A stretch of DNA of 64,000 nucleotides. It comes from Venturia oleaginea (lineage: Eukaryota; Ascomycota; Dothideomycetes; Venturiales; Venturiaceae). A program made the position numbers and the translations under genes. Positions 9,066 to 56,189 of the stretch are shown piece after piece (the stretch's first letter is position 1; every line of letters begins with the position of its first letter). The stretch lies in NCBI GenBank assembly GCA_013176395.1, contig JABMLP010000028.1:434001-498000 (forward strand), in the 5' to 3' direction. The notes under the pieces were generated by a model. That model had not been told where the DNA came from. It saw only the letters and a program-made list of their open reading frames with translations, and did no database searches.

Positions 9066-9132
9066 TAGCAACCTCCAGCGGGTTTGTATAGCAACCTCCA
9101 GCGGGTTTGTCTAGCAACCTCCAGCGGGTTTG
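9066..9132. repeat. three tandem copies of a 21-mer from the kelch gene end
   Basis: TAGCAACCTCCAGCGGGTTT(G) occurs at 9066-9086, 9089-9109 and 9112-9132, with a 23-bp period. The third copy overlaps the real C-terminus and stop (KPAGGC*) of the kelch gene; the other two are downstream duplicates. Confidence 0.95.
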
Positions 9133-10163
9133 AAAACCTCGGAGATGCTCGTAGTCAGTCGTGAGCCATTCGAAGCGCTACCGCCAGATATGTAAATGTT
9201 TTCATTGACAACAACAGCCACAGTGCCATGTCTGGGAGTCCTCATCGGAACGTCCTGAATCCAAGAGTCCTTTTCCACATCGTATACCTCCGTCTGAGGG
9301 AAGACGCCTTGCGTACTGTTATCGGGATTCCCCTCACCGCCGAAAGTGTAGATTTTGTTCCCAATCGCCGCCGTCGAGAGACTGCTGCGTGCTGTTGGCA
9401 CCCTCGCCATTTCGGTCCATTTCATATCCGCTGCACTCAGGTCCATCGCAAAGACACTGCTTTGCCTCGAAGCCATCAGACCTTTCCGACCTCCAACAAC
9501 GTAGAAGATACTGCCAACGACGGCACCACCGGCATGGTCTCGCACTTCAGGCAATTTCGTGGGCAAAACAGACCACTTGTCCGAAGCAGTATCGTAGGTG
9601 CTCACCACGTCCATTGCGCTTTGCCCAACTTTCTGCGTTCCGCCAGCGAGATACACAACCTTTCCGTGCACACCAATTGCCGATGATCCGCGTCCAGTTC
9701 CCGCCATCATCGAAGACTTCTCTTTCCATGTACTCGTTTGAAAATCAAGCTTGTAAGCCGTCTCCAGGGGAGTTGTGACACCTTCTGGCTTGAGGCTAAG
9801 CGCCCCAAGAACATACAGCTCGCCGTCTACAGCCACGACATTTGGATGATGAACCTTCATCGGGAACGGTGGCCCGGCCGACCATTTACCAGTCGTCGTA
9901 TCATAAACTTCGACAGTATCCAGACTTGTGAGGTTCGGCCATCCGCTCCCTTGTGCCACCATTCCTCCAATAAGATATATTTTGTTGCCAATCGCTGCTG
10001 CGCCATGTTCTGCTCGAAGGCCCATGGATAATGGTGATAGTTGCTTCCAACAACTACTGCTTGAAGGAGGCTCGGCTGCAAGCGAGAGCCAACATAACGA
10101 CAACAACAACCAAAACATAGATTTGAAAGTATGTATAGGGAGTCTTGTATTCTCTCTGGCCAT
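9111..10163 (-). CDS. secreted kelch-repeat protein
   Basis: Single exon, 350 residues. The N-terminus holds a hydrophobic signal sequence (MFWLLLSLCWLSLAAEPP, starting at residue 16), so the protein is probably secreted; translation may start at 10163 or at that second ATG (10118). The rest consists of about six kelch blades with the GG...Y/V...W pattern: IYLIGG, VYDTTTGKWSAGPPFP, VYLAGG, YDTASDKWSVLP, FYVVGG, IYTFGG, VYDVEKDSWI and IYISGG. These would form a beta-propeller of the galactose-oxidase fold. No copper-site or oxidase motif is evident, so a binding role is more likely than catalysis. Its last seven codons are triplicated downstream. Confidence 0.85.
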   Translation of the reverse strand: MARENTRLPIHTFKSMFWLLLSLCWLSLAAEPPSSSSCWKQLSPLSMGLRAEHGAAAIGNKIYLIGGMVAQGSGWPNLTSLDTVEVYDTTTGKWSAGPPFPMKVHHPNVVAVDGELYVLGALSLKPEGVTTPLETAYKLDFQTSTWKEKSSMMAGTGRGSSAIGVHGKVVYLAGGTQKVGQSAMDVVSTYDTASDKWSVLPTKLPEVRDHAGGAVVGSIFYVVGGRKGLMASRQSSVFAMDLSAADMKWTEMARVPTARSSLSTAAIGNKIYTFGGEGNPDNSTQGVFPQTEVYDVEKDSWIQDVPMRTPRHGTVAVVVNENIYISGGSASNGSRLTTSISEVFKPAGGC

Positions 10164-11289
10164 GGCGGTTGAAGAAGTCCAGCCAAGGATGTGCTATGAA
10201 AACAACCAAGATTCCGTTCTGCTTTTGACTCCAAGCAATCGCCAATATTAAAACGGTTCAGGTTATTACTCATTTCCATCAGAATTGCTGCTCAAGGGCC
10301 CCACCTTTTGGCTCATTGAGCCGAGGAGTTTGACGATATGTTGTCGGTGCATCCACCTCCGCATCTTCGGGATTGCAAAACTATCGCCAACAGATCGCTT
10401 CTACTACTCGTCCTCCAATACGCAAAGAGATTCATAATCATTGTATTCTTGACAGAATCACGCTAACATGTTGTTGGACGCGAATGCGAGTCCAAGAACT
10501 TCTCGCCAATCACGACAGCTCGTGTGTGGCTTGGCATTCGAGTCTCTTCATTGCTCTTACCTTCCAGAGCTTTGACGCGATAGCCCGGAAACTAAGATTC
10601 AACTAGAGGCCACGGAACTGCAGATTCGCTAATTCGTGGACTATCACCATACACATTGTTCATCTCCACTCTGCCACAGCACTGTTCTGATGTTTCCATC
10701 TCGGATGAGGCCGGATCACAAAACCCAAAGAGGCATCAAGTGTCGAGCCATGCGGCTGAAAGATCTTGTTTCTGCTCTTGATTCTTGGCGCTAGAGCCCT
10801 GCCAGAGTATTGGGAATCGCTGAAACGGAATACTATAAGGTGCATCTTGAAAAGTACCCACAAGTTACTTGTAAAGGTTTGGTGGTCGATCCGGCGTCGA
10901 CGGCACGATCTGATGGGTGGGCAAGGGGCGACAAGATTCCCAGGGCCCTGAGCAACTCGACTGTTTTTACTGATAACAGTTCCTTCACGTCCAATCTCCA
11001 GGGTTCTAGAAGCGCGGGAGGAAAATCTCACGGCCAAGAAACGCACCGGCCTTTCGTCTCTTCGCTTCAGGATTTTGAAAGCACGGGAACTCCGACACGA
11101 TGGCAAGCAACGATCCGACCTTTTTTGTGCAAGGATTGTGCTTGACCAGGCTGATACAGCCGATTTCCGAAATCGGGCCTTTGTAAAGGGAAATAAGGAC
11201 GAGGTCAGAATATTTCACCCAAAAGAGCGAACTTGGTAAAATCTCGAGCTGGCCACAATCGTGATCGACCTTTCATACCAGACTTAGTT
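10164..11289. other. intergenic between kelch and tyrosinase genes
   Basis: Open frames exist on both strands around 10660-11145 but none shows a domain, signal peptide or splice structure I can defend. This should contain the tyrosinase promoter. Confidence 0.5.
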
Positions 11290-15979: not shown

Positions 15980-17973
15980 GTGAATAACCAATTCGCTATC
16001 AACGTCTTGTCTGGTTCGCATGCTAGTTATTCATCTCCACTTACGTCGTCGACTCGCTGCTGTACTGAATGCAATTATTTGCTCTACCGTAATGAACCGA
16101 AAGCCATGTCTACTACCTTTGGTAAAGACGGGGACTGTAGTCTTTGCAGATATCTTCGTGATATCTCTGTAGATCCCAATCCCTACTGCCTTGGCGGAAC
16201 GCATATTGAACGGCAGGGATCGGACCTAGTTCTCAATGGGCAACGTGTGTTGACATTGCGATCTGCGCCTGGTAAGCAGGTACATGCCGCTTATCTATTT
16301 CAACTTAAAAGTGTATATATTGTTCCTTCTAACGCAATCTCTCTTAGACAATATATCTGACGGTATTCAGGTTGAATACGCAAATCTGCCACCAGTATCC
16401 AGTCCTGAATATTTTACCCTTATTCGAGCGAGCGTGGGTCGAAGGGTTTAACAAAGCTCATCAATGTAACAGCGCGATCACTAAGAACAACTTACCAACT
16501 CGGGTCGTTGATATTGGCGAGTCGGGTGATGATCTGCTCATTCTTCGGTATTCAAAAGAAATTGAAGACTGCAGCTATGTTGTACTATCACACTGTTGGG
16601 GTCGGTACAGTCCTAAAGAAAAGGGAGCGATTTGTACGCACAAGGGCAATTGGAAAGAACGTACATTTGGGTTCCAAGTACGAGACCTTCCGAAAACATT
16701 TCAGGATGCTATTGAAGTAACTCGGCAACTCGGCAAACGATACCTTTGGATCGATTCACTTTGCATTATTCAAAGCTTAGACGGAAATGAGACAGACGAC
16801 CGGAAAAAAGAGTCGAAACGAATGGAAACAGTGTTGTCTTTGGCATACTGCACGTTAGCTGCAAGTTTGGCTAAGTGCTCTAACGAAGGGCTCCTCAGGC
16901 CACGGCTATACAGTCAGTCCTTACAGCTCGAGACCGAGCACGGCCGTCTCTACGTCTCTACGGAGGTAGACAACTTTTTGAAGGACATGAAAGACGCTCC
17001 CTTGAATGACCGTGGGTGGGTTCTTCAGGAACGTATCCTCTCATGTCGAACAATCCATTTTGGTGCGAAACAAACGTACTTTGAGTGCGGAGAGGGAGAT
17101 TACTGCGAGAACTTCACATATTTGGAAAGGTGAGAAATATATAGGAACCTGTTCTATGTAAGCTAACCGTTATCTTCTTCGTTACTTAGTTCAAAACGCA
17201 ATGAATACTTTTCAATGGACCCACAATTTCCAGATCGCCTTCTCAACGCGGGTTATACACAAGTCTTAGAATTCATCCAAAACCTCTTTCGGGACTTTTC
17301 ACAACGTCAGCTTAAAAATACGACCGATAGATCAGTGGCATTTTCGGGACTCGAGAATCGTATTAAGAAGGCTCTTAAGACTAAAAGCATATATGGTATT
17401 CCTCAGAGATTTTTGTGCCGAACACTCCTATGGCAGCGTCCGAAACATGGGAAGTTGAACAGAATCGAATATGTAGATAAGTCGGTACCGTCATGGTCCT
17501 GGATGGCTTGTTCTGGCCCGATCGAGTTTGCAATTCCTCCGAAAACCCGAATGGCTTGGAGAACCACTCTTTCCTTTGAGGGGAGACTACAAATGGCTTG
17601 GAGAATCGCTCGTTCATTTAGAGGTCCAAAGAAGGCCCTGTCAGCTACGGAGGTAGCGAATTTCGTAGATTGCGAATTGAAGGAAGAAAAGAAGATAAAG
17701 GAAATTTCGAAAGAGAGAAAAGGGAAGACAAAGGAAATTGTGAGAACGGGGGGAGAAAGTATTGGGTGGATACAATACGACATACTGGAAGATATAACGG
17801 AGTTTGATATACAAAGATGCATCGTTGTAGGAAGAGATCTACGCGCTCGAGGGAGATATAACGTTTTGGTAGTCAATCCGTCGTCCCTGAAGAACGAATA
17901 TACCAGAATTGGGATTGGTGCAATTGATAGCTCTAACTTGTCAAGGATTAATGGTAAGGTGCGAGTTGTATGA
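15980..17973 (+). pseudogene. HET-domain (heterokaryon incompatibility) gene with a 4-bp frameshift
   Basis: HET domains trigger death after fusion of unlike fungal cells (family knowledge). Exon 1 (start uncertain: no ATG before 16106, and an upstream exon is possible) ends at 16271. Exon 2 runs 16348-17129 and exon 3 runs 17190-17973, with clean GT-AG introns. Exon 2 reads VEYANLPPVSSPEYFTLIRA, then the frame must change to continue WVEGFNKAH. At 16426-16434 the four bases AGCG are duplicated; without the duplication the frame would be continuous. The HET core then follows: YVVLSHCWG, DAIEVTRQLGKRYLWIDSLCIIQ, AYCTLAAS and RGWVLQERILS. The tail after residue 400 is Lys/Glu-rich. An assembly error would explain the break equally well. 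Confidence 0.85.
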
Positions 17974-21282: not shown

Positions 21283-22760
21283 CTAAACACCAGCAGCAAA
21301 AGTCGAGTTGATATCCCCAAACTTGATGTTACTGAAAGTAACACTCGCACTTCCACCAGCAGCCTCGACCTGCGCCGGCGATCCCCCACTGACAGGACAC
21401 TCTCCCCGCTTCCCACCAACCTTTGCCTCCGCTCCAGGCGGATCAACACTGTCCAGCCAATGCATATTCGCATAATGATCATCCCACAAACTCATAACGA
21501 GAACCATGCCTTTACTCAAAGCCTCACTCATACTCGTGAACCCACCCAGAGTCTTGAAGGTGTACTTTGCCTCTTCCCCAAATACCTTCTTCTGCGCATC
21601 GCAAAAAGCGGGCGTGACCGAGTTACCAGTCACTCCTGCGACTTTGGAAACACTGTTCGGAATCACCTTCCCATTCTGCACGTAGAACCTCTTAATCTCC
21701 TTCAACGGGGATCCAATAAACTGCGTCACAACCGTGAACTTGGAACCCGTATCGACTGTCTTGCCCTTGCCGTAGAAAGTGGGATCGCCCATGCGGTAGG
21801 GATTGAAATCGCAGCCGTCGGGGTCGCAGGTTCCGCCGTAGCGGTTGTTGGAATAGGTACCGCCGCAGGAATCACCCGTACATCTGGTTTGGCCTATGGT
21901 GCTGCAGGAATGGGGTGTCACGGCCGTGGCCATGCTGTTTGCTTCCCAGATGTCCATTTCGGCGCAGCAGGAGCCGAAACCGCCTACGCCGGAGTTCTTG
22001 TCCGTTTTTGAGGGTTTCCAGCCGGCGCTGTTGCCCTGGTGGATGTATTAGCTTTTGATTGTGTAAAGGGATGGGTGAGAGGAGTACCTCGCCGTTGATC
22101 CATTTCAGGTCACGGGGGCACTGGGCGTCGCAGTATCCAGTTCCCATGGTTGCTCTGGGAGGACACAAAATATTAGCTTTGCAGGTTCGAAAAGTTGAAC
22201 AAGCATTGAACTCACCCAGCCTTGTTTCCGGGATATTTGCTCTTTCCACCATCTTGGTCCATGGAGACAAAGTAGAGAGCAGTATTGAGACCACATCCAG
22301 CAGCACTCGTGTCGATATCAAACGTAAACTCCTTGTTCAACATGGAGAACATCTCGTAGTTATCGTCATCCTTCATCAAGTACAACCTTGACCCAACATT
22401 CGTCCCATAAGCATCCTTGGACAAAAAGTTGACCTTGACGGAATTTCCACTGGCAGTAATACCGTAAGTGCCAGGATAATCGGCACCATCAACAGCACAT
22501 TTCGCAGCGCAAGACTTGTTGTCGGTACAGATTTTTGTGTTCCAGGTGTTTCCAGTGTAGCAGTTTGTTGATCCAGAGACACCTTCATGGGTCCATCGCC
22601 AGTTTGCGTCCAGCACAATTTTTCCAGCGACGTCCGTGCAACCGGCAGTGGTACATTTTTGCCAAGTCAGCGGAGGATGTACTTCTTTCTTGTTTGTGCC
22701 CATGAGCTGCGCCTGCGCAGTCGAAATGGCGGAGAGAAAGAGAACTGTTGCTTGCAACAT
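21283..22760 (-). CDS. GH7 cellobiohydrolase (reducing-end), no cellulose-binding module
   Basis: GH7 enzymes release cellobiose from cellulose chain ends by a retaining mechanism. Three exons (22760-22216, 22154-22088, 22035-21283) give 454 residues. The signal peptide is [17 protein letters not shown]. The catalytic triplet E-x-D-x-x-E is intact in [14 protein letters not shown]. Other family marks are [66 protein letters not shown] and [16 protein letters not shown]. Length and loop content favour a cellobiohydrolase over an endoglucanase. The protein stops right after the catalytic domain ([13 protein letters not shown]), with no linker or CBM1. Confidence 0.94.
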
Positions 22761-24250: not shown

Positions 24251-25008
24251 CTAAGATGGCCCCAGAAACTGCGCCCGTCTGATAGCGCTTGGTGTAGCAG
24301 CCGAGTCGGCAGAAATGGCTGACATGGTTCCGTCTGGGTTTGCGATGTTCGGTCTTGGCTCGGACGGTGACACCGACAGCGGTGCGGCAGGTGATGCAAG
24401 ACCCGGGATTGGCTTCAGTACTGTGAGTGGGTTCATATCGAGCGAGGTCGGACTTGCCCGTCTCTCCATTTCTGTGAAAGGATTCAAGACCTCCAAAGGA
24501 ATGTTGGATGCTGGCCCGTGCCACATCGAAGGTTTAGGTCGACTGCCAGCTGGATCTTGTCGTTTCCTCAAGACCGGAACTGCTGTTGGGGTACTCGCAA
24601 GGCCAAATGACGCAGGCTCATGCCACATAGTCGCCTTTGGCTCGCTCTCATCAAGACTTTGCCGCCTAGCTTGTGGCAATTTTGGCGGAAGGCTATTCGG
24701 CGGTGCATGAGAAGCAGGACCATGCCACATGGTAGCTTTTGGCTTTGCGGGATCTTGTCGCTTCGACCTCAATCTTACTGCTATTGATGCAGCCGGAGTA
24801 TATGAAGCAGGGCCATGCCACATCGTCGCTTTTGGTCTGCGCGCACCAGGGTCTTGTGCCAGTGCCATTGGATTGGCGTGACTGCATGGTGTTAGATTGT
24901 GATTCGGAAGGAGAATTAAAAGTTGAGGCGGCAGAGCGATGGGAGTTCCACGTACCTTGATTGAATGAGCCAGAGTAGCACCAAAGGGAAGCAGGCCATT
25001 CGCGACAT
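24251..25008 (-). CDS. secreted repeat-peptide precursor with Kex2-like sites
   Basis: Exon 1 is 25008-24956. A 74-nt GTACGT...CTAAC...CAG intron follows, then exon 2, 24881-24251, for 227 residues. Residues 1-20 form a signal peptide (CFPLVLLWLIQSSHA). Four modules follow, each with one MWH[G/E]PAS core (at residues 38, 69, 103 and 137), usually preceded by PKAT. Dibasic sites RR33, KR59, RR91, KR125 and RR159 punctuate them, giving predicted fragments of 26, 32, 34 and 34 residues. QDPA follows KR twice. A 68-residue tail has another RR at 220. This is the layout of Kex2-processed fungal peptide precursors (pheromone, KEP and dikaritin types), but the core matches none I know. A GT-AG alternative in the tail could add a hydrophobic segment. 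Confidence 0.8.
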
Positions 25009-25464
25009 AGTGCTCGTTGACATGTCTCCTGATTTAGCGGTGAATTCTGTCGTCAAGTTGAGTCGAATATTTGGCGCTGAAATTGTTAAGTGGTCGTCTT
25101 TCGGCGTAGAAACAGGCTTGCATCTGGTCCTCCATCTTTTCAGATTTTCCTTTTCGCCATCGAATTCGACAGAGTTGAATATAAATGCATTGAGATGATC
25201 GAGTGAGGTTAATTGTTCAGCCACCTCGAAACCTGGGGCTTATTGTTTCGGACATTGAAACACCACCACCAACCAATTGTCGTTCTTTGACGATTGAAAA
25301 TGCAGAAACATGCCGGATATTGCCGTGCAATAAAGTTGTCCATGCGTGAGGAAACAAGTTTCTAGTGACAGCCATTGCGACTGGGCATCGTGCAAAAGCT
25401 ACGATCTTGTGCACCGCGCGTGAGAAGGCATGTAAAACACATAGTCTGCTTTTCATGACGCAGG

Positions 25465-26163
25465 TCAATCAAAATGGCTGTTGGCATGATGAGCAACAGC
25501 GGCTTCATCACCCTCGAATGATGCACATACTGGACAAACTGCAACGGGAGTGGTAGAATCCGTGACACTCTCTGCGGTACTCACTGCTGGGGGAGGACTG
25601 ACACCTACAGACCTGCCCTTCTTCTTCTGTTTTGGCTTTTTGACGAAGTCGAGAAGACTAGGAGCAGCTCGTGCAGACGCATCGATATCATAATCGAAAC
25701 CGTCTTCTCGCACGTCAGAGACATGGCGTCCACTGGGAGTCGAACTGGGTTGGGAATAAAATCGAGAGGTCGCTTCAGAACCGATAGGCTCCCCGTTCCT
25801 CCCCAGGTTACTCAATCCTGCAGATGCCGTTTGAGCAGTCGCTGCGTCCACGATCTGCTGCACGCGACCAACGCGGCCGTCCTGAAGGCGCACTTTGATC
25901 CCGCGAGGGTGATTACCAGAAGTCAGAACGTCGCCAACTATTCCCTGTACCTTTCGGCCGGTTGGCTGGTCTACTTTCAGCACGATGGAGACGCCAATAC
26001 CAGGCGTTACGTCTCTGAAAGCTGGTACAGTAGCCATGCCACCTCCCTGGGGCTGGCGATCAAAAGAGCGAAAATCGCTTCCGCCACGGCCTCTCCCGCG
26101 ACCACGATTCCTGGGACTTCTTCCTCCAGAAACGAAACCACGACCACGGTGCTGGTCGGACAT
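25465..26163 (-). CDS. YwbE-like (DUF2196) RGG-rich protein
   Basis: 232 residues from the ATG at 26163. The open frame extends upstream to 26397, but the first 78 codons do not look conserved. The N-terminus is RG/RGG-rich (GRGRGRGGSDFRSF), suggesting RNA or nucleic-acid contact. Residues 45-95 match the YwbE/DUF2196 domain: GIGVSIVLKVDQPTGRKVQG, then GIVGDVLTSGNHPRGIKVRL and DGRVGRVQQIV. The C-terminus has a basic patch (KKPKQKKKGRSVG) and a single zinc-finger-like CPVCASF...HHANSH. The molecular role of the family is not established to my knowledge. Confidence 0.82.
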   Translation of the reverse strand: MSDQHRGRGFVSGGRSPRNRGRGRGRGGSDFRSFDRQPQGGGMATVPAFRDVTPGIGVSIVLKVDQPTGRKVQGIVGDVLTSGNHPRGIKVRLQDGRVGRVQQIVDAATAQTASAGLSNLGRNGEPIGSEATSRFYSQPSSTPSGRHVSDVREDGFDYDIDASARAAPSLLDFVKKPKQKKKGRSVGVSPPPAVSTAESVTDSTTPVAVCPVCASFEGDEAAVAHHANSHFD

Positions 26164-27421
26164 TGAGTCTGTTAACCGATTGATTGCTTGGCTGCTGAAG
26201 GACGAGACTGATGAATCGAGTTGTTTTGCCTGAACACGAAGGTTTCTCATGGAAGGGCAATATGATCGGGAAATGGAAATCTTGATGAAGTGATTGTGCT
26301 GTGCGACACGCCGTTCAGAGCGAATGCGAAAAACTTTGGCGACCCGGAAGACTATCGGAGAACCCTCGGGGATATTCAATACACACCCATGAACCATCTA
26401 ACCTCGCCGTCAACTATTCATCACGACACCAACTCACAATTTCCAATTGTAAACTGTAAATTACTCTTAGTGGTGGTAAGAAGTATTTTTCTTGATGAGT
26501 ATTATCCCCCCACGTATAGTGCCGGCTTCAAGGCTAGAGGATAGAAGATACGGAATTGACGAAACTACTATTCCCTCAAAACAACCTAAGTCTCTCGTAT
26601 CATCCTCTCACCCACCTCAAATGCAACTACCTCAAGATATACACACACAATCCATTTCCATTCGCGCACAAAAAAGCCCGAAATCCACAACAGAGATTCC
26701 TGTCCATTCACGAAGATAAACCTACAAAGACGTCCAAAAGGTCAAGAACACACTCATAAGCAACACGAACACAATCAAAGAGGCGAGAATAAGGAACAGC
26801 GACAAGAGAAATCGATAAAAGTGCATACAAGAAAAGTTCGGCGGCAAGAAGTATAGAGACTAGATACAAGACAAGTAACGAGAGCATCCAGGAAGTGCTC
26901 CAATAGTACGTGATACAATACAGCGAGAGAGAGATAGTGGAGAGCGAAAGCGTACCGTGCTGGAAGCACAATACCCCAAAACTCGAACCTAGGAAAGAAA
27001 GAGAGATGTCAAATCAAAGGACCCACTCAGTTCAAATCACTCCTCCAAAAATTATTCCTACAACGCCGTCCCCCCTCCAGTGTGATGAGGCTATTGCGAA
27101 AAAACGCCAGGCTCAACTCATTCATACGTTTATAGTTATCTATGGCCTATCCTAGACCATCTGTCAGAAAAACTCCCAAACCAACATGCAGAGCAGATGA
27201 CACAAATGAGGGCATAAATTTCCCCCTTCTTCTCGCTGCGTTGCATACAGTTGGCCGCACAGATAAACGACAATATAGAAAACGCATTTACGTTCATCGC
27301 AACTAGGGTACTGTTGCTACCAATATACGTCATCACGGAGTTTCTTGTTGTCCGATTTTTCTAGGCGCCGTTAGTTGAGATCTTCTCATAGTGATGCGAG
27401 ATGGTACTTGCGACACGGTAC
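26164..27421. other. intergenic, no supported gene
   Basis: Both strands carry short frames. The hydrophobic minus frame at 26708-26971 is probably chance. 27356-27420 may belong to a terminal intron of the neighbouring mannosyltransferase gene. Confidence 0.45.
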
Positions 27422-28927
27422 TCACCTCCCTGCGACCTTGACTTTATCCACGGGATTGGCCACCTTGTTTTTCTTGGGCGCCGCCTCTTTCTTCTCGGCA
27501 GCCGGCGCCTTATCAGCAGGCGGCGACTTTGCAGCCTCTTTCTTTGCCTTCTCCACTTCGCTCTCGGCGTTTTCTTTCTTCGCCTCATTCTTCATGATGG
27601 CCTTATCCTTCTGCCATTGATCTTGGGGGCTGTCAAATTGCGCCTTGATCTTATCCATGCGATCTTTCTCTTCCTTCTCTTTCGCGGCCTTCTCTTTCCT
27701 CTCCTTCTCCATTTCTTCCATGTGCCGGATGTCGTCCACGCTGGGTTCGTACAAATGCCAGATGGTGTAATGAGGTAGGCCGACGACAGAGAACTTCATG
27801 CGCTTCGCCATCTGTGACCTGATTAGTAAAACTACGAGGTCAGGAGTGTATGTGGGTACTAACCTTTCCGAACCCCTCTGTCTCAGCATGCTTCTCAAAA
27901 CTGAAAGCTGGGAAATGTACACCTGCCCGAAACACTTTAGCCTTAGCCAGAATACTAACACCGCCAACCCCATCAAGCTCCATCTCCATATCTGGGTCAC
28001 CATAGGGGTCTCGAAGGTAGGCAAGATGAGGTCTCCAGGTCGCGTATTCTGCATAGCCCTCGACAATGACGGCGTCCTCATCCAATGTGTCTGCAAGAGC
28101 GAGAGCGGTTTCGGATTCTTGCCAGGAATTGAGATCGTAAGGTTGCTCGCCGCCTAGCCAGTCAGGCAGTGGTCGCCAGACGTCTGAGTGATGTGTTAAC
28201 AATAGTTCGGGATAGCCCACAAATTTAACGTACTTGGTACGATGACATCTTTATTATGGCGCATCAGATCTTCCAGAATCGTGAAAGGAGCTGTCTCCAC
28301 ATCCACATCTCTCCAATAAACCCAGCTGTGCGTAGGTCGCATTGCGGCGCTCAACAGCCAGTTACGAGCCTGTGCCATCGACTTTCTTCGCCCTGCCTGT
28401 GCAGCGAAACCGTGTCGGCTCTCCACATCTTGATTGACCTTCTGTCCAAAATCCTTCTTCATGATGGAAATCTCGCCATAACGTTGCCTTGGATTGTCGT
28501 GCTCCTGCAACTCCTCCAGCAGGTCGTTAAGCAGTTGTAGGGTGTTGTCCTTAGAATCCCCCACCAAGAATGCAAGATCAATGAGATTGTGGGGATATGT
28601 GAGGTTTCGCAAGTGTGAAAAGAACATGGGTAAATGTGGTGCGGCATCTCTCAAGGGAGCACACAGGAGAATTCTCTCTTCTCGCTCCCAGCCCCGAGCC
28701 GAACCTTGGACATTGGAGAGGTCGTAATATCGCACCGTTTCCAATTGCGAGTCTTCCGCAACGGAATATAGGCCTAGGGAGACGGCTCCAATAACACCGG
28801 CCCTTGCGCTTGGGGAGAATATGAAGACGAGGGAGAGACATGCCAGGGCGGCGAGAGAGAGTTTTAATATGAGTTGCCGCCGTCTTCGTAACGCCGGCTG
28901 TGATCTAGGTTGGAACCTGTAGACCAT
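27422..28927 (-). CDS. ANP1: ANP1/MNN9/VAN1-family Golgi alpha-mannosyltransferase
   Basis: Member of the Anp1 family, which builds the alpha-1,6 mannan backbone in cis-Golgi M-Pol complexes. Three exons (28927-28234, 28183-27864, 27811-27422) give 467 residues. The ATG at 28927 is used because upstream in-frame codons lack an ATG. A type II signal anchor spans about residues 20-45 (LILKLSLAALACLSLVFIF). Family motifs are ILLCAPLRDA, FLVGDSKDNT, ARNWLLS, the DxD metal site in WVYWRDVDVE, DVIVPNVWRPLP, YAEYATWRPHLA and the closing GLPHYTIWHLYEP. A Lys/Glu/Ala-rich tail follows. The apparent TGA stop lies inside GGGAG|GTGAGT; an intron from there to TAG at 27356 (branch CTAAC) would add about nine residues. 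Confidence 0.9.
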
Positions 28928-30044
28928 GGTGTTAGAAAGTTTCCTCTTCTTCACTTTAGGGAGGTTTGCGTAAAAGCGTCAATTGGGGCCAACGTACTTG
29001 TGCTGTGAGAAATTGTAGGCTCCGCTGCCTCCGAGGGGGTATGCGGCATTCCCATTTGAATAGGCCGACCTGTGCATCTTTCCTCCTTGGAACTCAGCAT
29101 GCAGCGGCAACATTCATTCAGAGGGATATCAAGGACCCGTCGATGGTAATTTGGTGGCCGATGACCGGCTTCCCTCCGGCGGGGTGTCTATGAGAGATCC
29201 AGGTCGAGGATGGCGATGAGATGGAGGACTGGGTGAGGGAGAGTCTTGGGTGGTCGAGCAATGTCCGGTTCTTGTTCGTCTTGCTTGCTGGATGTTTTTG
29301 TCAACCTTGCTGTGCCCCTGTCCAGCTCGGAGATCAAGTGAGATGGAAAGCAATAGCAATTCACCACAAATACAACTTGACGATGAAAATCACCCTCAGT
29401 ATGCGAGATACGCTCTGGGGTCGGAGATACAGTCAATTGATGTCGTTCCTCTCTTCTCGTTCTCGCAAAAAGGCTTACGTGTGCTCCCCGCTGCCCGCAA
29501 TTGTGGCCGCGACTCACAGAGGACATTGTCAACCTCAACCTGGCCTCTCGCATCCTGCGTCGTACGACTAATTCAATGTCTAGCACGGGTATCACGTTTC
29601 ATCAACATGCACTCAGGTTAATGCTACCGCGTCTCGAAAACTGTCTTGTCTCCTGGGTTGCCGACGATACCAAGCCATGAAAAGTTCAACGATTCTTTTT
29701 TGTAGCAGACCGTTAGGCCTATCTCCAAGATTGAGAGGTCATGATGATTCAGAAGATCTCTATTGGATGGTATATTTGACACTTGGTGATATCTGGCAAT
29801 ATGAGGTTCAGCATGATTACTCACGCCTAGTATTTCTTCTTTGTTTCTTCGGACGTACTCGACCTAGAGGCGCTTCTCAGGTCTGCCAAACACTATCGGG
29901 TATTGTATTGTACGCTTATGAAACATATCTCACAGGCTATTCTTAAACGATTTGAGCCTGGCAATCGTAGTCGCATCTCCTAAATATAGAACTGCAGTCC
30001 CGATCCTTTCCGAAAACCCATCTTATACCTCCACTCCTTCTCGT
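28928..30044. other. intergenic, no supported gene
   Basis: Frames overlap on both strands at 29130-29620 without domain or splice logic. It should hold the promoter of the mannosyltransferase gene. Confidence 0.45.
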
Positions 30045-30698
30045 TCAATCAACCTTGACATCCTCGCAAGGTCGCAACGAGATAACTTTACCTTCCTGCA
30101 CTCTATTCTTTCCAGCCCTATATTTCGCCTCTAAGATATAAAGCTCCTCGACCTGCTTCCCAGAAGCAAGCCAATGCTGCGCGGCCTCCAAGCGCTTCAT
30201 CTCCTCGTTCATGTATCCAAATAAACGAGGCATATAGTTCATTGGATAATCCGCTCGCTGCGGGCTCGAAGGTTTTTGCTTGGTTGTCGGAGGTGGGCAT
30301 GATTCTTCTGCGAAGGAAACCTTAACGGAGCGGCGCGAATGTGGCTCGTTGCTATTCTCGGCGTCTCCAACTTTGTTCTGCTCCCTCGTGGAGAGGATTA
30401 ACCTCCCCAATGTCCCTATCAAATCCTCCAGGCTCCACTTGACCACTGTACCATAATATTCCCAGGCCGACGCGCGAAGAGGCGTATTCCTCATCTTTGC
30501 GTCCCACTTTTTGAACCGATCGTGGGGGCGAACGAATTTCCGATCTTGCGTCGCGCTACGAAGGGTTTGGAAAAGGTCTTTGCACTCGATGATTAAATTG
30601 GCAACTGTGATGGCGATTGTTGGTAATATGGGTACAGTGCTGATGGTGGTCGCTGGCGTGTCGCTGGTCTGCTGTCTTGTACGATAGTGGAAAGACAT
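30045..30698 (-). CDS. hypothetical protein, 217 aa
   Basis: One uninterrupted frame from the ATG at 30698. No signal peptide; the segment about residues 22-45 is mildly hydrophobic. The rest is charged, with KFVRPHDRFKKWDAKMRN, a Trp/Leu-rich central part (WEYYGTVVKWSLEDLIGTLGRL) and a C-terminal helix-like part (FGYMNEEMKRLEAAQHWLASGKQVEELYI). The composition is protein-like and the pattern helical, perhaps an Ank/NACHT-type N-terminal region, but I do not recognise a family. No intron is required. Confidence 0.55.
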   Translation of the reverse strand: MSFHYRTRQQTSDTPATTISTVPILPTIAITVANLIIECKDLFQTLRSATQDRKFVRPHDRFKKWDAKMRNTPLRASAWEYYGTVVKWSLEDLIGTLGRLILSTREQNKVGDAENSNEPHSRRSVKVSFAEESCPPPTTKQKPSSPQRADYPMNYMPRLFGYMNEEMKRLEAAQHWLASGKQVEELYILEAKYRAGKNRVQEGKVISLRPCEDVKVD

Positions 30699-32299
30699 TC
30701 TTGCGATAGAAGCTTTGGTTGATCAGGTTGTAATTCTGCACTCGTGTCTTTGGACTGGAGATCTCTCGGTTTGGGAAATTTGAAAAGTCGAATTGACTGC
30801 GAACATACCTCTTAAATATTAGATACGGTGCTTCGCTTTGACTGAGAAATTTGTATTGGTCTTGTGCGGGCCTTCCGTATCATTGTAGGTCTCGCTTTGA
30901 TATCTATGGATCCTCTTCCAAACTGGAGAACTTGTGAGCTAGATACCCTGACCTATTATATATCGAAAAAGTTGAGACTGCTAGGAGTGCGAACGAGAAC
31001 AGGACGTCTGAAGTTGTGCGAAAGTTGAGCAAGATTTATCTTATCACTACTACAAGTCCTTTCAAGGTTCTGAAAGACTCCCCATCAAAATCGAAGCTTG
31101 GTAGATTCAGTTCTACCATTAGTAATTGTGGGTAGCTATTACTGGTAGACATTCAATTCCCAACCACTGCGGCTGGCTCAACATTCTCTTTTCTTAAAAT
31201 AAAAATCTCGTTGGTCCCAGTGAATGCGTCCAGTACTCTCTCCAATAGAGCTCTGACAAACCATGGTCGATATCGATAATTTTCCGGAAATCCGGATGAA
31301 CAATTTTGCCAGAAATTCATCGATATCGACCTGGAATTGGGGGATTTCAAAAAGAGAGCGTTATCGCGCAAGTCGTGATGAGATCGATTTGACCAAGGTC
31401 CATCTTTTGTTCCATTTCTCCTTCTTCTCCGCTTTCTTGGTGTTCTTATTCAGGGGCTTGTGATAGAATCATTTCGGACGATTATCTCGTAACGCGCATA
31501 GCCCAATCTCGCAATCTCAACATCGACCTTGCGAAGTAAGCAATGAAAGTGTGGTGTTGAAGCCGTACCAAAGGCGGCTGGCATAATGCTGAAGCTTTAA
31601 AGCCCCAAATCGAGTACCGCTGGTTTCGCGTTCGAACTCTGTAGTGGTGAGACTTCGGTTCTCACATCCCAATTTTCGATAACGGCTAGTGTTCTGGCGA
31701 CAAACGGCGGTAGGAAACTGCCTTCCATGGTCTGCACGTCGTTCTTACAATGAATTGTGAAGGGCCGGGGGGGGGGAGAAGGATGATGAGATGGCCAAAG
31801 TAGAGTCTGCAGATATCGAAAAGAACCGTCCATGAAATTCGGACCCTTGATTCTGTGGTGAATATGCGCAATACTTGTCAGTTTATGTCCCATCTATTCT
31901 ATATTGCAATCCGATATTCTGACGGTAATTGAAGTCTTCTCCGAGTACTGGGTCGTGGCCGAAGTGGAAGTGGAAGAGGACAGATATGATGACCGGAGAC
32001 ATGATGAAGAGTTAGGCAGATACTTCGAGGGGGAAGTTGACAGATATAGTTGTTGATGACTGGAAGAGCGACTGGAAGAGCAGCCTGATGGAACCTTGAG
32101 TACGTGTCCGTAACGATTGAGTAAGACCAAATCCTATCTTAGGAATATTTCGCAAGAAAGTGAAGTCGGTACGCGTTGTAAATCTCCACGCGAACCCTGT
32201 CGCGTACAACTACTATCCACGGAGTCGGGTGAGATGTTGCCGCAAGCTGTCCTCGACAAAACATATTATCGCGACCAAGACCCCAAATACCCGCCAACT
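30699..32299. other. intergenic, no supported gene
   Basis: Contains a G10 run near 31768-31780 and an imperfect 26-bp inverted repeat at 31262-31334 whose arms include GGTCGATATCGAT. The right end is the promoter region of the ARF-GEF gene. Confidence 0.5.
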
Positions 32300-35200
32300 A
32301 TGGCTGACATGGCCGTCCTCATGCCCCCGAGGCCAACCCCACTCACTGTGGCTGTCGACCCGGTCGGCCTGGTCATTACAGAATGCATCGCCGTCATGAG
32401 CGCCATGCGAAAACACCCCCGATGGGCACATTCAAGCGTAGGGGCTATTCTCAGTGGTGGAACCGAGGCTACAGCATTGGGGACAAGAAGAGGAGGGACC
32501 ACAGGGTAACGAGGACTCATCTTTGGCTCTAGACGCAGGATGGAGATGGGGGGCTAGGAGTAAGAAAGGAAAGAGTCTACAGGATAACCCTCTCATGAGT
32601 TCCTTCACGAAATTGAGGAGCCAATTGAGAGGATGTAAAGGTACGGGAATAGGTCCTGAAAAGGGGGGTAGAGTACTGATATACGTGTGGAATAGATATC
32701 AAGACGTTCGATACACCAAGACTACTCCATCCTTTCCTTCAAGTCATACGAAGCTCCTCTACCTCCGCCTCGATCACGTCGCTCGCCCTCATAGCCATGA
32801 CGAAGTTCCTTTCCTACAGCGTAATCTCAAGAGACTCACTACGATTGCCGTTTGCTCTACAGAATCTGGCAGCTGCAATCACGCATTGCCGATTTGAGGC
32901 GAGCAGTACTTCAGCAGATGAGATTGTATACGTTAGGATACTCAACCTTATGGAGGCTTTGATATCAGGGCCCACAGGAGACATGTTGAGCGACGAGAGT
33001 GTGTGCCAGATTATGGAGACAGGGCTAGGCTTGTGCTGCGACCAGAGGTTCACGCAAATACTGCAGCGGTCGGCGGAAATCACAATGGTTTCAATGTGTC
33101 AGATTATCTTTGAGCGGCTAAAGCATCTCGAATTTGAGGCTGGCGACGAGCCCGGCGCGTTGGACGAAGTTACGAAGGACGACATGGACACCGTGAAGAT
33201 GGATATGGAACCTACGACAAATGGCGAGAGCACACTCGCGCCGGAGATTGCCACCAACGGAGAGCAACACAACTCTCCTGGCGCGGAAGCAGAAACAGCA
33301 GGGACGACAGAGGCAACAATGGACTCAGAGAAAAGCCAGGAACTGGAACCTTTACTCGCAGCACCGCAAGTGGAGGATCCAAACAGCAGTACGGTGGACC
33401 TTGGAGTGCAGAGTGATGATGAGGAAGCTTTGGTAAAACCGTACTCGCTTCCCTCGATCAAAGAGTTATTCCGGAGTCTGGTCGAGCTGTTGGACCCACA
33501 CGACAAGTCGTATACGGATACGATGCGGGTGATGGCATTAAGGATTGTGGATGTGGCACTGGAGGTTGCAGGTCCATCAATCGCAAGCCACCCGAGTCTG
33601 GCTTCATTGGCAAAAGACACGCTTTGCCGGCATCTCTTCCAGCTTGTGCGATCGGAAAATATGGCAATTCTCAACGAGTCTCTACGTGTGGCGGGCACAC
33701 TATTGGCTACGTGCCGGAATGTGCTCAAGCTGCAACAAGAGCTTTATCTCTCGTATCTGGTCGCTTGTCTCTTCCCACGGGTCACGATACCTCATGAGCC
33801 TGGTATTGACCCAAAGCTGTATGAAGGCGTGCCGCAGGCTCCAGGTGTGATCAAGCCAGCGCCAGCTCAGCAGTCGGGGGGAGGGAGTGGACGAAACACG
33901 CCTGTTCCAGTCAGGGATCGTCAACGACTCGGTCTCGAGGGTGGATCACGCAAGCCGGATGCAAGAGAAGCTATGATTGAAAGCATTGGTGCCCTAGTTC
34001 GGATGCCAACTTTTATGGCAGAATTGTTCGTCAACTATGATTGCCAGGTTGATCGGCATGACATTTGTGCCGACCTGGTCGGACTTCTCTCACGAAACGC
34101 GTTTCCAGACTCTGCAACTTGGAGTACGACAAACGTGCCACCGCTTTGTCTTGATGCTCTTTTAGGATTTGTGCAGACGATGGCAGATCGATTGGACGAC
34201 GAACCTGTCACTGAAGGTTTCCCTTCTGCGGAACAGCTGCGGAACCAACGCGATCTTAAGGCGACAATCATCAGAGGCACGGCCAAATTCAACGAGTCAC
34301 CTAAAGCAGGTGTCGCCTTCCTCGCCTCTCACGGCGTCATATCGAGTGTGGATGACCCAAAAGCCATCGCGCAATTTGTTCAAGGCAGTTCACGGCTTGA
34401 TAAGAAAGTTCTTGGGGATTTCATATCGAAGGGCTCGAATGAGAAGATTCTGATAGCTTTCTTGGAGGCCTTTAATTTTGAAGGCAAAACAGTTGAAGAG
34501 TCGCTCCGCGAAGTTCTGTACACTTTCCGTCTGCCAGGAGAGTCGCAATTGATTGAACGTATCGTTGTTGAATTTGCTAGGAAGTACATCAAGGACGGGA
34601 ATCACGACAACATCGCCAACGAGGACGCCATCTTTGTCCTAACTTACGCTATCATTATGCTAAACACCGACCAGTTCAACCCCAATGTCAAAGATGCGCA
34701 GCGCATGAAGCTGGACAACTTTGCGAGGAACTTGAGAGGTGTCAACGATGGCAAAGATTTCGACATTGAGTATCTCGAGTCGATATTCCTGTCCATCAAG
34801 TCGAAGGAAATTGTATTGCCAGAAGAACACAGTAACAAAGACGCCTTCGGACATGCTTGGAAAGAGCTTCTGGTTAAGGTCGACACCGCGTCTGATCTGG
34901 TCATTTGCAATACTAATATTTACGACGCTGACATGTTTGCTGCTACGTGGAAACCCATTGTTGCCACGCTCTCGTATGTTTTCATGTCAGCTTCAGAGGA
35001 TGCAGTTTTCTCGAGAGTCTTCACGGGATTTGCACAATGCGCGCAAATCGCCGCGAGACATGGTTTGAGTGATGCGCTGGACAAGATTGTGTTCTCGTTG
35101 AGCTCCATCAGTACTTTGGCAACAGGAACCTTGCCCAGCACTTCATTGAATACTGAAGTCCAAGCTAATGGGAAGAGCGTCATGGTATCTGAAACTGCCG

Positions 35201-37440
35201 TGCGATTCGGCCGCGATGACCGCGCTCAACAAGCCACCGTCGTCCTGTTCCACGTTCTAGAGGGCAATGAAGCGACTTTGCGTGACGGATGGGAATACGT
35301 ATTTCGCATCATGTTGAACCTTTTCATCAATTCTCTCATTCCAGCTAGCTTTAAGTCGCAACACCTTGATCTACCGGCGATACCACTACAGCCACCTGCT
35401 CAAGTCATTGACAGAGGCGAGAGACATGCCGAGGGCGGATTGTTTTCAGGTCTCTCGAGTTACTTGAGCAGTTTTGCAAACGATGAACCTCCGGAGCCGA
35501 GTGAACAGGAAATCGAAGACACGCTTGCCGCAGTGGACTGCATCGGGCAATGCGATTTTGAACAGTTCGTGGAACGCATTAGGTGAGTTGACTCTCTTCT
35601 GAGTGTGTTCGAATCCCTGAGAATTCCTGGAGAGCTGCCATCCAACATTCTTAGTCGCGTTTGGAGGTCGTCATCGAAATCTCTGTTCCACATGGGTGCG
35701 TCAAAAGATCTTGGTCTCTTCTTTTCAGGCTCGCTAGAAATTGTAGCCATTGCACTGCTATCAGAGCTCTAGTCGTTGAAGCCGCTTTATCCATTGTCGA
35801 GTTGTCTTGGATTCTGGCTAACATATTCTTTCATAGCAACTTACCTGTTGATTCTCTGAAGTCTGTGATCGACACCCTTTTGAGCCAAATTCCAGAGGAT
35901 TCGAGCCCAAGCGTTATTACTGTCAAGCCTGATCTGCCTCCCACGAGCCCGAGGACTAGTGGCACGAGGAGGAAGGCCAACACTCCTACTTACGATCCCA
36001 CGATGGTCTTCGTACTTGAGCTGGCCACGATATTGACATTGAAGGACGAAGAATCAGTGCGTGAACTTGGTAAAGATGTCGCTGGCGCACTGGAATCTGT
36101 CATCCGAAACGCTTCAAATATGCATTACGTGGCCATCTCGAGAGTGGTATATTATATTTTGACTCTGTTGAGGTCGAGCGATGTAAGTGTCTCTTCATGC
36201 TGGGCGATGCCACTTGCGTGCTCAAGACTAACGACTGTAGGACTACGGCTTCCTCCGCGCGCCCGTAGTTTTACATGCCTTTGCCACGTTTGACCAGGAA
36301 CTACTGGAGCAGTGTGCTCTTCCTCTCATCAAAGGAATGGCAGATTGCATTCAGGGGTCTTCTTCTGGCCTTCGGAGCGAGATGGCCACTTCTCCCGACT
36401 TTTGGGACATTCTTCGCAAGCTGCATAGTGTTCAGGAGGTCAGCCCGTACGTCTTCCGCATATTAGCAGAGCTGCAGACGTCACCTTCAACCCAACCTGC
36501 CATCACGGCAGACAATTACGAGCAAGCCATCGTGCTTTTCAACGATTTTGCTACTGCTGGTGCTCAGGGAGCCAAGGACGAGCAGAGACGCGACATCGCC
36601 AGGAGAAGAAAGGATACCTCTGGTAAAGTGCCCAAGCCCAAACATAAGCATGAGGTTGAAAGAGCGGTGAAGGCCATGGGAATGGTCTACGAAATGACCT
36701 CTAGAGTTCCTTCATTCATCGCACAGTCTCACCTTGAGACTACAGAAGCCTGGACAGCGTACTGGTCCCCCATTTTCCGCGTCTTGACGCAGCAATGTCT
36801 CAACCCTTGCCGAGAGATTCGCACACAGGCTTTTTCCTGTCTCCGACAAACACTGCTGAATCCTATTCTTTTGACCAAGGAGGAGGGAGATCGGGATAAA
36901 GAGTGGACGGCTATCTTTGATGAGATTCTCTTCCCCTTGATCAACCAGTTACTTAAACCTGAGATTTATACTTCGGATCCTGGAGGTATGGGTGAGACGA
37001 GAGTAGAAGCCGCGACGCTTTTGTGTCGTATTTTCCTTCATTTCCTTGTTCAGTTGGCGGAGTGGGGTGGGATGGTGGCTCTCTGGGTTAAGATACTGGG
37101 AGTGATGGATCGGTTGATGGCGAGTGGACAGGGTGAAAGCCTTGTACGTCTACCCTACCACAACTCAAACTAACTGCAAATTCAGCTTGCTAATTTACCG
37201 TCTTAGGAAGAAGCCGTCGCCGAAAACATGAAGAACATTCTGCTCGTTATGCAAAGTGGTGGGTACCTTGCGCCGCCGGAGGAGAAACCGGAACAGGCTG
37301 AGCTTTGGAATGAGACGTGGAAAAGGCTGAATCGTTTCTTGCCGCATTTACATAAAGAGCTTTATCCTGAGATCAAGGAGAAGGATAGGGGAGTGGAGGC
37401 GAACAAGGGGGAGGCTATTATTCCGATTGTTGAGAACTAG
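32300..37440 (+). CDS. GEA2: ARF guanine-nucleotide exchange factor, Gea/GBF1 type (Sec7 domain)
   Basis: Activates ARF GTPases for COPI traffic at the early Golgi. Exons: about 32300-32640, 32696-35582, 35655-35771, 35837-36182, 36241-37143 and 37207-37440. The N-terminal DCB part reads AVDPVGLVITECIAVMSAMRKH and DNPLMSSFTKLRSQLRGCKD. The HUS region lies around KEGLV-like ALVRMPTFMAELFVNYDC. The Sec7 domain covers RDLKATIIRGTAKFNESPKAG to IMLNTDQFNPNV, with the glutamic finger in FRLPGESQLIERIV. HDS segments reach the C-terminus. Within the first exon the frame must change between AILSGGTEATALG and NEDSSLALDAGWRW (about 32455-32508), with no credible intron; an extra T in GGGTAACGAG at about 32509 would explain it. 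Sequence error or mutation is unresolved. The 35772-35836 intron has a GTCGTT donor. Confidence 0.9.
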
Positions 37441-39657: not shown

Positions 39658-39729
39658 GTTTGTAAGGATCCCTTTTCACGATAAAAGTCGGGCTGCTATT
39701 GTCTACGCAGCCGACAAACCTCACCAACT

Positions 39730-41304
39730 ATGCCCCGAATTCTCGACCTTCCCTCCCTTGCGGACGATACTACCACCCTCGAAAACAGTACTCTCGAAAA
39801 CCCCCTAGCCTTCTACGACTTCTTTATAACCCCTAGACTCGCAGCAACCCTTACTCAGAAGATCCAAGCTACCTTTGCAACCCCGGCGGACGAAGCCTCA
39901 GTCAACGAAAATGAATACATCCCAGTCTCACACGTTACTCTCGACCGCGCTTCGGCGCTCCCACTCCTCCAGCTTTTAGCTACCATCTCCCATATGTTCA
40001 ACACAGCCCAGCGAGACCAGGATACCATGTCCCGTTCAATTCAAGAACTCAAGCTCGAAGCCTCTGAGAACGAAGCTCGCGCCCTTCGAGCAGAACTCCA
40101 GGGCGTTACTTCTCGCGAAATCTCCGCCCCTCGACCAACCCAAGGCGACATCTCTATCTTTGAAGGAGATAAAAAAAAATACAAGAGCTGGCTCTTAGAC
40201 CTCCGGATAAAACTAAGCGCAGACTCCAAAGCATTCCCTTCAGTAAACTCACAAGTTACTTACGCCTTCAATCGACTTGACGACAAGTGCAAATCCACAA
40301 TTCGCCCATACTACAACGAAACTACGAATTCATGGCCTTTTGAATCCCTCGACGAATTTATCTCAAAACTCAACGACAGCTACGCTCCTCGTTTCGATAT
40401 TCAAGATGCTATGAATAAGCTGCAGAACCACAAGATGGCAAACCGAACATTTGCTACTTACGCCGCAGACTTCCGACGCCTACTCCAAGAAGCCGGAATC
40501 ACCCTCCCTCACGTCTCAGAACCCGCAAACCCCTTGGAACAACTTATGATTGTCAACTTTCGCAACGGCCTGAGCGCAGAACTCAGCGGAGCAATGATTC
40601 ACGTCCCTACGACAAAGAAACTGGAGAAGTTAATCGATCTGTGCCACAACTGCGAAGCCAACATGAAACAATTCGAGAAAATCTCTCGAGCTCGAAAAGC
40701 TCCCGTATTCTCAGGATCATCTACATCAGCTACCGCTCCCTCTGCATCCCAACGCGCATTCCTAGTCTCCCCCGCCACTTCTTACGCTTTCGGAGATGCC
40801 ATGGACATTTCAGTTATGAACCTCAACGGTAGTGCCGGCGCCGACATAGGTACCTGCCTCCCGTCTCTCCAGATGAAACCAATTGCATCCTGGACCCTGG
40901 AAGAGAAAGCCGCCAATATCCAATGGCGAAAGACCAACAACCGTTGCGGATACTGCGGAGAGCCCGTAGTAATTATGCCTAATGGTCAGAAGCACATCGC
41001 CGCCGTATGCCCTAAGAAAGCCCAGCGTGGACGCCCCTCCAATCAGTTCACTACTCCCAACCAGTTCGCCAGTGACCCCATGCAGTTTGGCAACTCCGGA
41101 GCTCGAAACTTCATTCCCCCTATGAGCTTTAGCAATATGAGTATGTCAGGAGCATCGGGAGCGTATCCACAGAACGTCCAGACTCCCCGGATCACTCAAG
41201 GCCCTGAAGAACGCTCAGGTTCTACCGCCTCTTCTAGCACCACAAGCTACGGCTTCGGATCAGCCCCATACACCCCGAGTTCGGAAAACTCACAGTCTCG
41301 TTGA
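39730..41304 (+). CDS. Gypsy Gag protein
   Basis: 524 residues, uninterrupted, from the ATG at 39730. The retrotransposon gag region spans about residues 130-300 (FEGDKKKYKSWLLDLRIKL ... LNDSYAPRFDIQDAMNKL ... LLQEAGITLP). A zinc-knuckle-like motif CGYCGEPV...HIAAVCP lies near residue 405, in a CX2C...HX4C arrangement with a longer spacer than usual. A Ser/Pro/Gln-rich tail follows. The stop overlaps the start region of the pol frame, which is in the -1 frame. Confidence 0.93.
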   Translation: MPRILDLPSLADDTTTLENSTLENPLAFYDFFITPRLAATLTQKIQATFATPADEASVNENEYIPVSHVTLDRASALPLLQLLATISHMFNTAQRDQDTMSRSIQELKLEASENEARALRAELQGVTSREISAPRPTQGDISIFEGDKKKYKSWLLDLRIKLSADSKAFPSVNSQVTYAFNRLDDKCKSTIRPYYNETTNSWPFESLDEFISKLNDSYAPRFDIQDAMNKLQNHKMANRTFATYAADFRRLLQEAGITLPHVSEPANPLEQLMIVNFRNGLSAELSGAMIHVPTTKKLEKLIDLCHNCEANMKQFEKISRARKAPVFSGSSTSATAPSASQRAFLVSPATSYAFGDAMDISVMNLNGSAGADIGTCLPSLQMKPIASWTLEEKAANIQWRKTNNRCGYCGEPVVIMPNGQKHIAAVCPKKAQRGRPSNQFTTPNQFASDPMQFGNSGARNFIPPMSFSNMSMSGASGAYPQNVQTPRITQGPEERSGSTASSSTTSYGFGSAPYTPSSENSQSR

Positions 41305-44300: not shown

Positions 44301-45281
44301 CTCTTTCTCCAACACGTCTACCGCCTCCACGGCTTACCTCGAAGCATTATCTCCGACCGAGGATCCCAATTCGTTGCTATCCTCTGGAAAGTACTCTGCA
44401 AACGCCTCGGAATCCGAATCCGCCTCTCTACCAGTTTCCACCCCGAGACAGATGGCGGGACCGAGCGAGCGAATGCCCAAGTCGAAATCTACATCCGTGC
44501 TTACTGCAATTATCAACAAGATGATTGGGACGAATGGTTACCACTCTGCGAATTCGTGATCAACAACACACCCTCCAATGCAACAAAACTCACACCATTT
44601 TTTGCCGCCTACGGCTACGATCCACGCTCCGGATTGGAAGCGCCAATTCAACCAGACCGTAACGCCTCTCGCCACGAAATTACCGAGACACGAAAAGCTA
44701 ATTCCATGGCTGACTTCATGGCAAACCTTGAGAAGATTTGCTACAACGAGATCCGCCACGCCAGCGCTACCTACGAATATTTCAAGAACAAACATCGGCT
44801 TGGTTCTCCAAACTACAAAGTTGGTGACTGGGTTTGGCTAAACCTCAAGAATATCAAGACCACGCGCCCATCCAAAAAGTTCGACTGCAAGTTCGCCGGC
44901 AAATTCAAGATTCTACAAGCCCTAGACCACGACGCTTACAAACTCGAGCTCCCTACTTCTATGCATTGCCATCCCGTCTTTCATACAAATCTACTGCTCC
45001 CTGCCTACCCCCCTTCCGACAGGATGTTTCCAAACCAGAATGACTCGCAACCTCCTCCCGTCGATGTTGAAGAAAACGATGGAATCTACACCCTGGATGA
45101 AGTCGTTGATTCACGATTCAACAAAGCTACGAAGAGATTTGACTACAAGGTTAAATGGGAAGGCTATTACTTACCGACATGGGAACCCCTTCAATTCTTG
45201 CACAACGCAAAGAGCGCGGTTGATGAATTTCACCAGAGATATCCAAGAAAACCAAAACCAACCGGGTACAGGCCTGGTTAG
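41301..45281 (+). pseudogene. Gypsy Pol polyprotein, one in-frame stop after protease
   Basis: Frame open from 41301 except one TGA at 41793-41795, then open to 45281. The protease region has AVTDSFATGSFID where the active-site triad D-S/T-G is expected; the glycine is phenylalanine. RT: FVKKPGGGLRFCVDYRKLN, FTKIDIISAFNALRV and the catalytic YLDDILIYS. RNase H: VETDASDW, YDKELLAI and ITDHQNLEHY. Integrase: HX4H...CDACRRAK zinc domain, MDFITDLP, IISDRGSQF and HPETDGGTERAN. Chromodomain: YTLDEVVDSRF...YKVKWEGY..PTWEP at the C-terminus. About 1,320 codons. RT, RH and IN are intact; the protease looks inactive. Confidence 0.93.
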
Positions 45282-50409: not shown

Positions 50410-50482
50410 TGCGTATAAAGCGAAGTAAAGGTCGGAGGTAAAGAAGTTAGAATTACTTAAGTAGTGTGACCGGGCTCATAAC

Positions 50483-50667: not shown

Positions 50668-50893
50668 GGAGACGGGGCTCTGGCGGGGTACGTAGCCGTA
50701 CTTCAAGGCGATCCAACACTACCTGCGCGTTAATAGGGACTAGCCCTACTGCCTCAAAGGCCTTTCGACAATTCTCTTCCGTGAACGCGTCGAAAAACGC
50801 GTCTTTAAAGGCAGGGAGAAAGCCTTCCTTGTTGATATGGTACACGCGTCGGCGCGCCAAGTCCCGGATGCGTTGGGAGTACTTGCGCTTTAA

Positions 50894-55106: not shown

Positions 55107-55115
55107 ACTATTGTT

Positions 55116-56112: not shown

Positions 56113-56189
56113 TTGCTATCCCGGGGATTGCAACTTTGGGCTTGGCGCGCTGTTCGTGGCAGCCGTTCTTTGCAGGCTCATCGGCTTAA

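Follow-up and report, generated by a model that had tools for sequence, protein, structure and literature searches.

Kex2-processed repeat proteins (KEPs) are a known and very diverse class of fungal precursors. By the published criteria, a KEP has an N-terminal signal peptide, falls into four or more fragments on cleavage at KR or RR, and carries at least three similar repeats of at least eight residues between Kex2 sites, with the repeats covering no less than 15% of the protein (PMC6339444, PMC7329392). The survey results drawn from PMC7329392 count 7878 KEPs in 1345 of 1461 strains, and 2560 of the 7878 were without a homologue within the surveyed set. A new repeat core is by itself ordinary, because KEPs are both numerous and private. 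The functions of KEP peptides are described as largely unknown in PMC9769878; that study used mass spectrometry to detect, in Coprinopsis cinerea, KEP peptides bearing pyroglutamate derived from an N-terminal Gln, and expression in Pichia was accompanied by C-terminal trimming of a precursor and spontaneous pyroglutamate closure of the peptides. Ascomycete alpha-pheromone precursors share the signal peptide, the repeats, and the Kex2 sites of this layout, and the dikaritin precursors of ustiloxin and phomopsin share repeats separated by Kex2 sites.

The locus described here lies in a window of 64 kb, the whole stretch of DNA that was analyzed (positions 434001-498000 of contig C21), in a 46.1 Mb genome of 61 contigs. 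On the minus strand, the letters of the DNA predict a two-exon gene whose joined exons encode a protein of 227 residues (Table 1). The protein runs from MSRMACFPLVLLWLIQSSHANPMALA through four units to a C-terminal tail, an arrangement of two exons, signal-like start, and four modules that agrees with the earlier note, the intron and the signal peptide being predictions. Hydropathy averaged over 9 residues peaks at 2.69 in the stretch beginning at residue 7, within exon 1, and two candidate sites for signal cleavage were recognized by eye, after SSHA (residue 20) or after ALA (residue 26). The frame of exon 2 continues open across the predicted intron; since the length of the intron is not divisible by three, the signal-like start and the units are joined solely in the spliced form. 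In the unspliced form, the first ATG of this frame lies at 24868 and is not accompanied by a hydrophobic start. After residue 26 the protein contains no Cys and a single Tyr, located immediately behind the core of unit 1. An AlphaFold model of exon 2 alone, made from the single sequence, had a mean pLDDT of 53 and almost no secondary structure; this would suit a precursor and is no proof of one. A possible fifth repeat, degenerate and located in the tail, was considered and rejected, as its score of 4/11 was equalled or exceeded by 82% of 5000 shuffles.

Table 1. Predicted features of the repeat-protein gene and neighboring domain matches, with positions numbered within the window
Feature	Position	Strand	Description
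Exon 1	25008..24956	-	MSRMACFPLVLLWLIQS plus 2 nt of the following codon; signal-peptide-like start
Predicted intron	24955..24882	-	74 nt, GTACGT...CTAAC...CAG; CTAAC begins 14 nt before the end
Exon 2	24881..24251	-	stop TAG
Unit 1	24758..24856	-	QDPGARRPKATMWHGPASYTPAASIAVRLRSKR; conserved half QDPGARRPKATMWHGPAS, variable half YTPAASIAVRLRS, dibasic KR
Unit 2	24662..24757	-	QDPAKPKATMWHGPASHAPPNSLPPKLPQARR; conserved half QDPAKPKATMWHGPAS, variable half HAPPNSLPPKLPQA, dibasic RR
Unit 3	24560..24661	-	QSLDESEPKATMWHEPASFGLASTPTAVPVLRKR; conserved half QSLDESEPKATMWHEPAS, variable half FGLASTPTAVPVLR, dibasic KR
Unit 4	24458..24559	-	QDPAGSRPKPSMWHGPASNIPLEVLNPFTEMERR; conserved half QDPAGSRPKPSMWHGPAS, variable half NIPLEVLNPFTEME, dibasic RR
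C-terminal tail	24251..24457	-	Pro/Ser/Ala-rich, one further RR, terminal AQFLGPS; no fifth repeat above chance
TGAAACA	25256..25262	+	upstream of the gene; 7 matches in the window on both strands, about 0.05 expected here; weak lead
Kelch	9114-10193		Pfam; farther from the gene
HET	16348-17130		Pfam; farther from the gene
Cel7 cellulase	21286-22047		Pfam; near the gene; matches many Cel7 structures
DUF2196	25468-26397		Pfam; near the gene
Anp1	28199-28978		Pfam; near the gene
Sec7	32680-35583		Pfam; near the gene

The four units share an 11-residue core, PK[AP][TS]MWH[GE]PAS, in which the heptapeptide MWHGPAS occurs three times and MWHEPAS once (starting at residues 38, 69, 103, and 137). Chance repetition was rejected, since shuffling the mature protein 200 times never produced a four-member family of 7-mers with at most one mismatch, the largest family having two members (5/200). 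Conservation is confined to the first half of each unit, from its initial Gln through the Ser that ends the core, and the 14 residues behind the core show a mean identity of about 10% between units. Gln is rare after residue 26 (6 of 201 residues) and is nevertheless the first residue of all four units, in three cases directly behind KR or RR and in one directly behind ALA, so that it follows each of the three between-unit dibasic sites. The earlier note makes no mention of these Gln starts. Shuffled versions of the mature protein contain 1.7 [KR]R pairs on average, whereas the protein itself holds six (P = 0.0027). One of these, an RR within unit 1, precedes a Pro, before which kexin is expected to cleave poorly. 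The description of every module as bounded by RR or KR thus holds between units and fails on the left side of unit 1, which abuts the signal-peptide region instead.

Comparison of the four 33-nt cores suggests which part of the unit is under constraint. Of 12 variable columns, nine fall at the third codon position (hypergeometric P = 2.5e-4), and the codon differences between cores are those the earlier note had described. By the Nei-Gojobori method, the sense frame gave a pS of 0.78 and a pN of 0.07, the strongest contrast of the six frames, and the observed constancy was matched in 0 of 5000 neutral simulations (star divergence with 45 ± 3 nucleotide differences, scoring whichever of the six frames did best among those free of stops); all these silent-site figures are somewhat favorable and partly circular, because the repeats were picked for the agreement of their peptides. 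On the plus strand, an ORF at 24315-24710, antisense to the gene, contains repeated EAGPCHIVAF-like stretches that are the mirror image of the sense cores. An antisense gene was rejected on its weaker silent-site signal, which was the second best of the six frames (pS 0.48, pN 0.14). To our knowledge, it is unusual for cores to be so diverged at silent sites and for spacers to be unrelated, and yet for the Gln, the core, and the dibasic ends to persist. This combination points to old modules, each held by selection. The proposal that selection acts on the peptide is therefore supported by the pS and pN values, the excess of third-position changes, and the neutral simulations.

The KEP rules were applied to the protein by hand. 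Cutting at KR and RR gives seven fragments; the repeats are the four 11-residue cores in four units, by our own count and not by the FIMO and seed-scan programs of the KEP authors; and the core alone accounts for 44 of the 227 residues (19%). A kexin is encoded in the same genome, as indicated by a P-domain match and by similarity to PDB kexin (E = 2.5e-169 over query residues 99-585). By the fragment, repeat, and coverage rules, counted in this way, the gene classes as a KEP, with a probable signal peptide. Units, dibasic sites, and the silent-site pattern together bear out the KEP-like layout proposed from the first inspection of the DNA. The gene shares with KEPs the secretory-type start, four similar units, and KR or RR in between, and differs in that the first half of the unit alone is conserved and in that the units have not been recently homogenized, given the very high synonymous differences between cores. 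The position of the core, which does not adjoin the Kex2 sites, contrasts with compact KEPs and counts against this assignment. Among individual KEPs, protein 497993 of Coprinopsis cinerea (PMC9769878) likewise yields Gln-initial peptides, for which pyroglutamate was found by mass spectrometry; its core, QIPAELPTKSINGNIEPYK, appears unrelated by eye, without alignment.

On balance, we consider it likely that the gene is a KEP whose four linear peptides of 30-32 residues, probably capped by pyroglutamate, are released as secreted signals. The signal-like start present after splicing would direct the protein to the secretory pathway, and kexin would cleave behind the KR, RR, KR, and RR of units 1 to 4. 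A carboxypeptidase would then trim the basic ends, releasing peptides of 31, 30, 31, and 32 residues, for which the calculated monoisotopic masses in the pyroglutamate form are 3330.716, 3151.603, 3278.581, and 3514.665. If the signal peptide were cut after SSHA, the remaining NPMALA would consist of three X-P or X-A dipeptides, which an enzyme of the STE13 type could take off; DPP IV/STE13-type peptidases gave four matches at three places in the genome, one of which was checked against the PDB. The N-terminal Gln of each peptide would probably cyclize to pyroglutamate and so protect the N-terminus. Neurospora possesses glutaminyl cyclases located in the ER, and the same study suggests that a Gln first exposed in the Golgi may evade the ER-located enzyme (PMC5241404). 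Closure may also be spontaneous, as reported for peptides made in Pichia. Selection, as the silent-site analysis supports, would act on the constant half, which closes with PK[AP][TS]MWH[GE]PAS; the most likely reason is that this half binds one partner, a receptor belonging either to the fungus or to an organism it encounters. The variable half may act as a spacer and is perhaps trimmed further. The role of the peptides as secreted signals is inferred.

A related reading, which we regard as rather unlikely, is that the protein is a secreted effector or a hormone mimic directed at a plant or other host, its modules being active either after release, as a special case of a KEP, or together as one repeat protein. 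The secretory-type start, the repeats, and the kexin sites suit this role as well. Against it, we recognized no motif of a known plant peptide hormone. According to PMC6339444, plant pathogens carry more KEPs than animal pathogens or saprotrophs do, which favors an effector, though the difference does not hold for KEPs as a share of the secretome.

It is unlikely that the dibasic pairs are incidental and that the protein is not a processed precursor at all. It would then be disordered and either secreted or associated with the wall, or its gene would be mispredicted. In favor of this explanation are the Pro/Ala/Ser-rich composition, the lack of a predicted fold in the model, and codon usage, which is indistinct: the gene scored 0.085, below all seven training pieces, taken from clear genes of the window (0.109 to 0.244), a level that was reached by 11% of 2000 stretches drawn at random from the window. 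Two frames on the opposite strand scored slightly higher (0.087 with one stop and 0.099 with nine), and the third-position GC of the gene is 0.48, compared with 0.52 to 0.63 in the training pieces. Codon usage and third-position GC thus do not support the reading frame, which also counts against a KEP. The silent-site pattern of the cores, the dibasic excess (P = 0.0027), and the Gln behind three of three between-unit sites stand against the explanation as an unprocessed protein or misprediction.

We give little credence to a divergent alpha-type mating pheromone precursor whose products would act on the species' own Ste2 receptor, although several observations are in keeping with it. A Ste2 gene is present in the genome (C3:1011182-1011949), and upstream of the repeat-protein gene there is one TGAAACA (Table 1), a match to the pheromone-response element of yeast Ste12. 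The canonical pheromone was not found: by eye, all five genome matches to WCxxxGQxC fall outside repeat precursors (three matches came from the reversed control pattern), and PYGxPxG, the core known from Pleosporales, had no match; this absence weighs little, as neither pattern would detect a pheromone at another place in the genome that is divergent or lacks the Trp. With no candidate from these patterns for the alpha pheromone of this fungus, a divergent one is retained here as a rival. Divergent alpha factors are known, such as NSNGGLPGELL of Huntiella (PMC10182648). In contrast to alpha-pheromone precursors, the between-unit Kex2 sites are not directly followed by the XA or XP dipeptides removed by STE13, but by QD, QS, and QD, and the core stops short of the next Kex2 site. 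The units, at 30-32 residues, are also longer than the 9-24 given for alpha pheromones in PMC6339444. The core belongs neither to the Cys-pair type WCxxxGQxC, there being no Cys after residue 26, nor to PYG[LM]P[IV]G, which agrees with the initial view that it is not a known alpha pheromone; neither type of precursor was found elsewhere in the genome by eye.

A dikaritin-type precursor of a cyclic RiPP like ustiloxin or phomopsin, which the earlier note had also named, is alike in layout and sits in a genome with at least 23 UstYa matches, but can be virtually dismissed, as none of those matches to UstYa/DUF3328 lies on the contig of the gene, eight ORFs of the window between 9114 and 35583 had no UstYa and no domain taken for a tailoring enzyme in Pfam, and the core lacks the Tyr of the EDYXI given for ustiloxin and phomopsin in PMC6339444. 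Of the 45 ORFs in the window that reach at least 170 residues, ten were compared with Pfam, and no tailoring cluster was seen among these ten; the nearby ORFs at 27425-28153 and 30048-30722 had no Pfam family. A search for 5.8S rRNA was negative.

Retroelements were observed elsewhere in the window. An element at 50893-58143 contains a reverse transcriptase (PF00078, 53577-55103), behind which an ORF at 56190-57353 appears tyrosine-recombinase-like by eye and had no Pfam match. Its repeated stretches, at 50893-51287 and 57749-58143, with an additional 237-nt copy at 57513, are similar to split direct repeats of the DIRS/Ngaro type. Part of the reverse-transcriptase ORF, close to its end, recurs in five more copies at 54752-56115 with a spacing of about 200 nt. 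Adjacent sets of long retroelement ORFs, recognized by eye, are gypsy-like (39685-45281, plus strand) and copia-like (45756-50475, minus strand).

Searches for relatives of the repeat protein returned no family in Pfam and no match in NCBIfam. There was no paralogue in its own genome, where the two matches at E values up to 10, one per exon, are this locus itself. None of 20 candidate stretches for bacterial relatives was confirmed, and a single PDB match (E = 0.34) was rejected. Nine candidate stretches from IMG/VR gave two matches, with 59% identity over 27 residues and an E value of 6e-5 relative to the candidates only; these were taken for chance, as they lie in frames of 479 and 508 residues that lack MWH and match the C-terminal tail alone. 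A text search across 5.39 million papers did not find WHGPAS, and pieces of the core three or four letters long were absent from the main text of PMC7329392, PMC7099791, PMC12048977, and PMC9769878; in PMC6339444, "pas" alone occurred, at two places not taken for peptides. No description of the core was thus found, and the searches, with the supplementary KEP tables outside them, do not establish that it is absent from print.

A bolder proposal, which we advance tentatively and hold to be somewhat doubtful, is that MWH[G/E]PAS may be the invariant face of an undescribed family of fungal peptide signals. Its members would be pyroglutamate-capped peptides of about 31 residues with a constant N-terminal half that binds one receptor and a C-terminal half that drifts, and it would be module-wise selection, not gene conversion, that has preserved the four copies over a long time. 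Strong silent divergence among the cores flags the important residues without needing homologues. The products of the precursor are well defined by their Gln start, constant half, and dibasic end, so that a culture supernatant can be searched for four exact masses and a response could be probed with one synthetic core peptide.
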